A stretch of 64,000 nt of DNA from an uncultured Bacteroidota bacterium. GTDB lineage: Bacteria > Bacteroidota > Bacteroidia > Flavobacteriales > Flavobacteriaceae. The notes under the pieces are model-generated. The model was given only the letters and a program-made list of their open reading frames with translations, was not told the origin of the DNA and did not search any database. A program made the position numbers and the translations under genes. The stretch spans positions 1-64,000 of the forward strand of contig CABZAD010000003.1 in assembly GCA_902523665.1 (NCBI GenBank), in the 5' to 3' direction. Below, piece by piece: positions 2,517 to 11,653 of the stretch (its first letter is position 1; every line of letters begins with the position of its first letter).

Positions 2517-4715
<2,199 letters not shown>

Positions 4716-9996: not shown

Positions 9997-10191
9997 TTAG
10001 ACGAAATAAAAAAGTTTATTAATTGGTGTTTTTAAAGATTCTGAAATTTTTATAGCTATGTTAAGGCCAGGCACAAATTTATTTTTCTCTATTGAAATTA
10101 TTGTTTGTCTGCTAACACCAGCTAGCACTGCTAAATCCTCTTGGGTTAGACCTGCACCTTTTCTATAATCTTTAACTCTGTTTATAAGCAT
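9997..10191 (-). CDS. Small XRE/Cro-type HTH transcriptional regulator
   Basis: 64 aa; RKGAGLTQEDLAVLAGVSRQTIISIEKNKFVPGLNIAIKIS helix-turn-helix. Confidence 0.9.
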   Translation of the reverse strand: MLINRVKDYRKGAGLTQEDLAVLAGVSRQTIISIEKNKFVPGLNIAIKISESLKTPINKLFYFV

Positions 10192-10192
10192 A

Positions 10193-10210
10193 TGTAAAGT
10201 AAGCTTTACA
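10193..10210. promoter_or_regulatory. Operator-like dyad 1 TGTAAAGTAAGCTTTACA
   Basis: TGTAAAG-N4-CTTTACA inverted repeat ending 1 nt from the XRE start codon. Confidence 0.65.
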
Positions 10211-10356: not shown

Positions 10357-10377
10357 CTAGAAAATTGAATTTTCTAG
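10357..10377. repeat. Perfect inverted repeat CTAGAAAATT-G-AATTTTCTAG upstream of the YceI gene
   Basis: 10-bp arms around one central base; ends 20 bp before the start codon. Confidence 0.7.
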
Positions 10378-10396: not shown

Positions 10397-11008
10397 ATGA
10401 AAAAATTAATCACTTTATTAATGTTTGTCTCACTGGTTTCATGTAATATGAACTCTAACAAGTCAGAAGAGACAAGTAACGTTACAGTTAATGCGTCTGA
10501 TGCAATTTATAATATTAATCAAGACGAAAGTAGCCTTGTTTGGACTGGTAGAGAAGTCTCAACAAGCTCCCACTATGGATCAATTAATTTTACATCTGGA
10601 CAATTTGAGGTTGTAGATGGTCTTATTTCACAGGGTGAGTTTTTTGTTGACATGACATCTATAAACGTGCAAGATTTAACAGGTGGAAGTAAAGAAAGGT
10701 TAGAGGGCCATTTAAGATCAGATGATTTTTTTTCAGTCGAATCTTTTCCTTCAGCTCATCTATATATTTCAAGTTCAGAGCTAATATCTGATGGAAAATG
10801 GATGGTGAATGGTTTTTTAACCATAAAAGACATTTCACACCCTGTTTTATTTGAAATGGCAAACACTCAAGATGGGTGGACTGCTAACCTTGTTTTTGAT
10901 AGATCAAAGTATAATGTGAAGTTTAGATCAGGAACATTTTTTGAAAATCTTGGTGACAAACTCATTTACGATGATATTGAGTTAGAAATTAATCTAAAAA
11001 CTTCATAA
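10397..11008 (+). CDS. YceI-family lipoprotein
   Basis: Lipobox-like LVSCN; SSLVWTGREVSTSSHYGSINFTSGQFEV...LRSDDFFSVESFPSAHLYI, typical YceI. Confidence 0.9.
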   Translation: MKKLITLLMFVSLVSCNMNSNKSEETSNVTVNASDAIYNINQDESSLVWTGREVSTSSHYGSINFTSGQFEVVDGLISQGEFFVDMTSINVQDLTGGSKERLEGHLRSDDFFSVESFPSAHLYISSSELISDGKWMVNGFLTIKDISHPVLFEMANTQDGWTANLVFDRSKYNVKFRSGTFFENLGDKLIYDDIELEINLKTS

Positions 11009-11009
11009 T

Positions 11010-11090
11010 ATGAATCCTAATAGACCTAGATGTGGATGTGGAAACACGCAAGACCCAGAAGGCTTTTGTGATGGCTCTCATAGCAGCTAA
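11010..11090 (+). CDS. 26-aa CDGSH-type iron-sulfur microprotein
   Basis: Own translation, not in ORF track: MNPNRPRCGCGNTQDPEGFCDGSHSS*; CxC...CDGSH ligand set. Confidence 0.75.
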   Translation: MNPNRPRCGCGNTQDPEGFCDGSHSS

Positions 11091-11092
11091 TA

Positions 11093-11653
11093 ATGAATAA
11101 GTTACTTGCATTTGGGGCTTCTTCCTCAAAAAACTCAAGGAACAAAAAACTAGCCTCGTATGTTGCCACTAGAATGGCTCCAAAAGAGGCTATTCTTGTT
11201 GACTTAAACGAATTCGAAATGCCAATTTATAGCGAAGATAGAGAACAAGAGATAGGCATACCAGATAAAGCATATGAGTTTAAAAAATTGGTTAATGAAA
11301 GTATTGGAATAATAATTTCACTTGCTGAGCACAATGGCTCCTATACCTCGGCATTTAAAAATATATATGATTGGATTTCTGTAATTGAAACAACAGTATG
11401 GGGTAATAAGCCCTTAATATTATTATCAACTAGTGATGGACAAAATGCTGGCAAAACAGTGCTTCAAACTGCCTTATCTCGCTTCTCTAGACAAAGTAAA
11501 GAGGAAATTCCTCATTTTTCACTTCCAAACTTTAATGTAAACTTTTCAGATACTGATGGAATTATCAACAAAAAACTAAGTGGAGAGTTAGATAAACAAA
11601 TAAGTATATTCTCCAGTCAAGTTGATAACTTACTTGATTCCTGTAATAATTAG
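11093..11653 (+). CDS. NAD(P)H-dependent FMN reductase
   Basis: GASSSKNSRNKKLASYV, EHNGSYTSAFKNIYDWIS, KPLILLSTSDG flavodoxin-fold reductase motifs. Confidence 0.85.
   Translation: MNKLLAFGASSSKNSRNKKLASYVATRMAPKEAILVDLNEFEMPIYSEDREQEIGIPDKAYEFKKLVNESIGIIISLAEHNGSYTSAFKNIYDWISVIETTVWGNKPLILLSTSDGQNAGKTVLQTALSRFSRQSKEEIPHFSLPNFNVNFSDTDGIINKKLSGELDKQISIFSSQVDNLLDSCNN

Follow-up and report, generated by a model that had tools for sequence, protein, structure and literature searches.

Between yceI and a gene for an FMN reductase-family flavoprotein, the 64,000-nucleotide stretch of DNA analysed here (the window) carries an open reading frame of only 26 codons. Is this frame a gene, and if so, what might its product do? 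The ORF (11010-11090, forward strand; MNPNRPRCGCGNTQDPEGFCDGSHSS) starts with the ATG at 11010 and ends with the stop codon at 11088-11090. Upstream on the same strand lies yceI (10397-11008), encoding a 203-aa YceI-family lipocalin (Pfam YceI, E=3.1e-24) with a lipoprotein-type signal whose lipobox, LVSC, was read from the sequence. It scored 86.5 bits against PF04264, above the cut-off of 23.7, and its closest solved relative was TT1927b (1wub). The downstream gene (11093-11653, forward strand) encodes a 186-aa FMN_red-family flavoprotein (Pfam FMN_red, E=6e-25), the downstream partner in the genus and in a few relatives. This protein scored 88 bits against PF03358 (NADPH-dependent FMN reductase), above the cut-off of 24, and its closest solved relatives were FMN-dependent NADPH-azoreductases and chromate/quinone reductases.

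A 26-residue gene between yceI and the reductase gene

The yceI stop codon is separated from the ORF's ATG by 1 nt, and the ORF's stop codon from the ATG of the reductase gene by 2 nt, exactly as the original prediction had placed it. This positioning of start and stop codons supports translational coupling of the ORF to yceI and to the flavin-reductase-family gene. Fusion to YceI by read-through or frameshifting in the window was considered and rejected: the ORF has its own ATG and lies in a frame unlike that of yceI, and the corresponding gaps in Polaribacter are tens of bases long, so separate initiation is the simpler explanation. Both P. irgensii and P. glomeratus have yceI paired with a micro gene, and the Polaribacter orthologue is 30 aa long. 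The protein, which we refer to as micro-CDGSH, carries the motif CxCGxT-x4-GxCDG[ST]H (11031-11081, forward strand), with Cys8, Cys10, Cys20 and His24 as the predicted ligands and a spacing in the window copy of C-x-C-x9-C-x2-S-H. All four ligands of the CDGSH set are kept, and the interval between Cys2 and Cys3 is 9 residues compared with 8 in canonical CDGSH, which confirms the one extra residue claimed beforehand. When all six frames were scanned, the motif was unique in the window in both its strict and its loose form; per shuffled window, 0.07 matches to the loose motif and 0.00 to the DNA pattern used below are expected.

Within the genus, a profile search in which no residues were forced recovered orthologues in 19 of the 24 other genomes, with E-values down to 1e-15. 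In 18 of those 19, as in the window, the gene is intact and in the same place, in the core order yceI - micro-CDGSH - FMN_red(+); the genus loci also keep an HTH_3 gene upstream and a methyltransferase gene downstream, both on the opposite strand. The remaining copy, in genome G007, is divergent and sits elsewhere. Neither G007 nor the five genus genomes without micro-CDGSH gave a yceI match; these genomes are 54-84% complete, and such an empty answer is weak. Most close relatives have one codon more, end in ...SHSNQ or ...SHxNK, and have a stop codon that overlaps the ATG of the reductase gene (TAATG). In the window the last CAA became TAA, which makes this copy one codon shorter.

The window protein and every genus orthologue carried the ligands C-x-C...C-D-G-(S/T/A)-H, the first Cys of the G007 copy being unread (an N in the assembly). 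Invariant positions in the genus set comprised the CDGSH residues, the Cys, the Thr and three Gly; the third bases of many of these codons varied. Over the 17-codon core, 19 sequences gave a pS of 0.54 and a pN of 0.067 (pN/pS, 0.12). Over the full 22 codons of the same sequences, pN/pS was 0.20, compared with at least 0.36 in the five other frames. Thus neither a lack of conservation nor the substitution pattern of non-coding DNA was found; purifying selection acts in this frame only, and the 26-aa ORF is a genuine protein-coding gene.

A second micro-CDGSH paralogue (VECSCGQTSNPYGICDGTHWSC) was observed 10-17 kb from the first in four other genus genomes (motif at 3608-3658 in locus L111); no match to it was found in the window genome.

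Family distribution, partner genes and fusions

Across the order, 32 of 398 genomes, mostly of 1-2.1 Mb, matched the family profile at E <= 0.001, a few of the weakest matches being ordinary CDGSH proteins. A sample of 396 genomes from across the phylum returned the window genome as the sole match, and the family is therefore limited to some lineages within the phylum. We scanned 84,980 species genomes with an exact DNA pattern and obtained at least 119 matching stretches; the taxa among the matches listed were marine Flavobacteriales, Paenibacillus, Brevibacillus and Verrucomicrobia/Opitutae, the last mostly with two tandem copies. Viral contigs yielded at least 120 further matches to the pattern, and the two scans pooled gave at least 177 distinct proteins of 22-35 aa with at least 125 distinct cores. 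The pattern itself fixes the Cys, Gly, Thr, Asp and His of the motif, so their invariance among its matches is not independent evidence; the genus and order profile searches, which did not force these residues, agree with their conservation.

Searches of named-phage and plasmid collections with short protein queries gave no convincing relative. A literature search found no mention of CDGSH together with YceI, and the titles and abstracts of papers containing both CDGSH and phage held nothing about phage CDGSH proteins. Micro-CDGSH is a so far unlisted family of 22-35 residues in marine flavobacteria, other bacteria and phages. The microprotein was rightly predicted to be overlooked and genuine. 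It is not a one-off: the family, large and so far without an entry, extends to other phyla and to phages. Its genes are too short for routine annotation, are retained in small marine genomes and are frequent in environmental phages.

Among the 119 named loci listed, which include many close relatives and are not independent counts, YceI was the immediate upstream same-strand gene in 55 and was fused to micro-CDGSH in 2 more. Of the 81 genomes of the family, 80 have YceI, each with about 1-8 copies, from which we estimate that a random gene would lie next to it in roughly 0.1% of cases. The flanking genes differ, with MarR, HxlR, HTH_3 or a D-Tyr-tRNA deacylase-like gene upstream and FMN_red or a TrpE-like, Lrp-like regulator or DUF3857-like gene downstream (those not searched were named by eye), indicating that the yceI-micro-CDGSH pair has been kept through rearrangements. 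An FMN reductase gene lay directly downstream in 15 of the 119 loci listed, 5 of them without YceI. Four arrangements showed this linkage: accompanied by HTH_3 and YceI, as in the genus; accompanied by YceI plus pirin (MED-G14 type); placed behind a YidC-like gene; and, at three loci, accompanied by neither. The link to a flavin reductase that had been predicted for the window therefore recurs, in two of the four arrangements without YceI, but YceI is the commoner neighbour. Micro-CDGSH is most often partnered by YceI, with the FMN reductase as a second, recurring partner. Copies in Paenibacillaceae, Verrucomicrobia and phages are without YceI, and most family members have no adjacent reductase.

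Micro-CDGSH was found in five architectures, the first being the standalone protein of 22-35 aa. In the second architecture it lies N-terminal to a signal or membrane segment followed by a YceI domain (nine loci and others); the motif ligands are invariant and the hydrophobic segment is variable. Such fusions occur in at least 9 further genomes, and in most of them the gene order is HxlR(-) / micro-YceI - pirin. One fusion (L023/L038, genome G056) has an in-frame TAA after CxCG in its micro-CDGSH part, through sequencing error or decay. In the third architecture the motif forms the C-terminal tail of PSP1/RicT homologues (L051, L053-L056 and L077; Pfam PSP1, E=1.6e-28), fusion to RicT accounting for 3 of the 119 named loci listed. 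RicT/PSP1 proteins of marine Flavobacteriales with this tail, also seen at L166 and L177, keep the paired CxxxxCC cysteines. The fourth comprises tandem pairs in Verrucomicrobia/Opitutae, in proteins of about 54-63 aa; double copies were noted at 11 loci.

The fifth architecture is that of phages, in which micro-CDGSH either stands alone or is attached as a tail to the C-terminus of XkdF-type head proteases (Peptidase_S78_2, E=4.3e-13; six loci with such tails). The standalone phage copies often lie beside a peptidase-M15 gene and small membrane-like genes, in what resembles a lysis-type cassette (viral loci L179-L298, for example L288, L184 and L187). A small membrane-like gene adjoins micro-CDGSH in 39 of the 120 viral loci listed, with peptidase-M15 or another small gene on the other side. 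One phage protein (L255) fuses a different micro motif, CGCGRSPTGKCIGWH, to micro-CDGSH; this motif possibly represents a related class of 3Cys-1His loops.

Relation to CDGSH and SEC-C proteins

Micro-CDGSH shares the ligands Cys-x-Cys...Cys-Asp-Gly-Ser/Thr-His with CISD/NEET proteins (PF09360, types 1-7; PMC3174974), and the S/T lies equally far from Cys2 in both. The CISD consensus C-x-C-xx-(S/T)-xxx-P-Phi-C places 8 residues between Cys2 and Cys3 (PMC3174974), whereas 9 were present in every micro-CDGSH member found, the S/T being kept and P11 replaced by Gly. CISD proteins also have a hydrophobic residue before Cys1, an N-strand and a lid-proline motif, GP-Phi-x-Phi (Lin et al. 2011, PMC3174974). 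In micro-CDGSH, Cys1 is mostly preceded by Lys or Gln, the 26-aa protein has no lid-proline motif, and the beta-sandwich and dimer scaffold are probably absent, the chain being too short for the known folds. Because it departs from CISD in spacing, P11, the hydrophobic residue before Cys1, the lid-proline motif and probably scaffold, we named the family micro-CDGSH and did not assign it to CISD. Type 6 and CISD3-like tandem proteins carry two motifs per chain, as does the Opitutae form; the stretch between motifs is about 6-15 residues in Opitutae, in contrast to about 20 with a folded core in type 6 (PMC3174974).

Profile-profile comparison matched micro-CDGSH to canonical CDGSH motifs with 97.2% probability and a one-residue insertion. 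Against Pfam PF09360, the window protein scored 12.5 bits, below the cut-off of 29.5, and the tandem form 16.6 bits; 18 of 50 family members reached Pfam zf-CDGSH at E<0.1 (best, 6e-4). Profile searches of the PDB returned weak CDGSH matches only. No NCBIfam or PHROGs model recognised the window protein, nor did the 50 members have a credible match in NCBIfam. AlphaFold modelled the single form (a 30-aa orthologue, 50 sequences) with a moderate mean pLDDT of 74 and no Foldseek match; the tandem model, at a mean pLDDT of 55, was too poor to use. The profile-profile match with its single-residue insertion suggests that micro-CDGSH would work like the CDGSH motif and probably derives from it.

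The SEC-C motif is another portable Cys-rich micro-domain that starts with CxCG and is often a C-terminal tail, with a His directly after its third Cys. Micro-CDGSH is likewise portable and starts with CxCG, but its His is at Cys3+4. Membership in SEC-C was rejected on this position and on the lack of a Pfam SEC-C match, at E<=1 for the window protein and at E<=0.1 among the 50 members.

Possible function and alternative explanations

The best overall explanation, to which we give a probability of about 0.45, is that micro-CDGSH is a minimal 3Cys-1His [2Fe-2S] microprotein, made with YceI and the reductase, that would act as a one-electron relay from flavin to quinone. It is very probable that the protein binds metal. 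The three Cys and one His of the 17-residue loop would bind one metal centre, most likely [2Fe-2S] as in mitoNEET, and we somewhat favour such a cluster over zinc. The Fe-S model is consistent with the conserved Thr after CxCGx, with the D-G-S/T before the His and with the occurrence of the same module on RicT, which in B. subtilis is an Fe-S protein (PMC6751060). If so, a bare loop of some 17 residues could suffice for a working CDGSH-type metal site, and these would be the smallest CDGSH-type proteins, in a class uncatalogued so far.

Published precedents and gene order suggest a path NAD(P)H - reductase - micro-CDGSH - quinone - YceI. The CDGSH cluster of mitoNEET passes electrons from FMNH2, generated by a flavin reductase and NADH, to oxygen or ubiquinone (PMC9490426). 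Ubiquinone-8 or related prenyl lipids are found in YceI lipocalins, one of which, BcnA, acts with a linked or fused cytochrome b561 in protection from lipid peroxidation (PMC9113575). In the BcnA-LcoA system (PMC9113575), as here, a YceI lipocalin is joined by linkage or fusion to a predicted redox protein; there it is a membrane cytochrome b561, whereas here it would be a CDGSH-like peptide of 26 aa in the cytosol.

The cytosolic micro-CDGSH would be co-produced with YceI and the FMN-dependent reductase, the stop and start codons of neighbouring genes nearly overlapping. The reductase would turn NAD(P)H into reduced flavin, the micro-CDGSH centre would accept an electron and hand it on to membrane (mena)quinone, and YceI, as an isoprenoid-quinone-binding envelope lipocalin, may carry or use the quinol to quench envelope oxidants. 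Flavobacteria use menaquinone. Because YceI is exported and micro-CDGSH is predicted to be cytosolic, the inner membrane would separate the two, and any contact must go via the membrane quinone pool. YceI, a widespread lipocalin of unclear physiology, gains a testable candidate partner in the cytosol. We regard the flavin-to-quinone relay itself as tentative: the closest solved relatives of the reductase, being azo/quinone reductases, need not release free reduced flavin. Most family members are without the reductase, so a general metal module may have several uses, of which the role with the reductase is one. It is similarly doubtful, although conceivable, that micro-CDGSH represents a widespread class of about 25-residue [2Fe-2S] microproteins in bacteria and phages which, with YceI and a flavin reductase, forms an envelope-protecting NAD(P)H-to-quinone path in marine flavobacteria.

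The same loop could instead be a redox-inactive zinc knuckle, its three Cys and one His holding Zn2+ in a portable interaction tag, like SEC-C tails, on YceI-linked, RicT-linked and phage proteins. That the loop is bare of the CDGSH scaffold fits this possibility, as does its occurrence on unrelated proteins, where it extends the N-terminus or forms a short tail; in phage head proteases or a lysis-type cassette, it is difficult to imagine a redox role. We consider it possible but unlikely, since [2Fe-2S] CDGSH loops have the same CDG[ST]H part and the same conserved Thr, Pfam SEC-C gives no match, and the module is fused to the Fe-S protein RicT and linked to a flavin reductase. Less probable still is a labile 3Cys-1His cluster that reports iron or oxidative state, or is passed on, and is co-regulated with a YceI stress operon. 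NEET clusters are described as labile and transferable (PMC6006223), the operon is flanked by MarR, HxlR or HTH_3 regulators, and the signal segment of the YceI fusion would leave the motif in the cytosol; against this, no recurrent Fe-S assembly genes were found in the neighbourhoods clustered.

Two further explanations deny the peptide itself a role. The spacing of 1-2 nt on either side in the window could mean that the frame serves as a leader whose value lies in ribosome passage from yceI to the reductase gene. This very improbable reading is largely refuted, because amino acids and not DNA are conserved and because elsewhere the gene is last in its operon, free-standing or fused into other proteins. 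A chance ORF, for which short length alone speaks, has a negligible probability and is ruled out by frame-specific purifying selection, by cross-phylum conservation and by the 0.07 motifs expected per shuffled window. Under the preferred reading of a minimal [2Fe-2S] protein, a portable CDGSH-type module would travel on lipocalins, RNA-processing factors and phage head proteases.

The gene of a 64-aa HTH_3 regulator (9997-10191, reverse strand; Pfam HTH_3, E=2.1e-13), found in the same place in genus loci, runs divergently from the yceI operon, and its product probably regulates that operon. Just upstream of yceI we observed a perfect inverted repeat, CTAGAAAATT-G-AATTTTCTAG (10357-10377), which is not conserved in other genus loci and was set aside for that reason. 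An operator-like palindrome (TGTAAAGTAAGCTTTACA) lies at 10193-10210, and roughly half of the genus loci have a palindrome of this class ahead of yceI. The TGTAAA/TTTACA palindromes are plausibly the operator for the divergent HTH_3 protein, and more such boxes extend beyond this site to about 10307.
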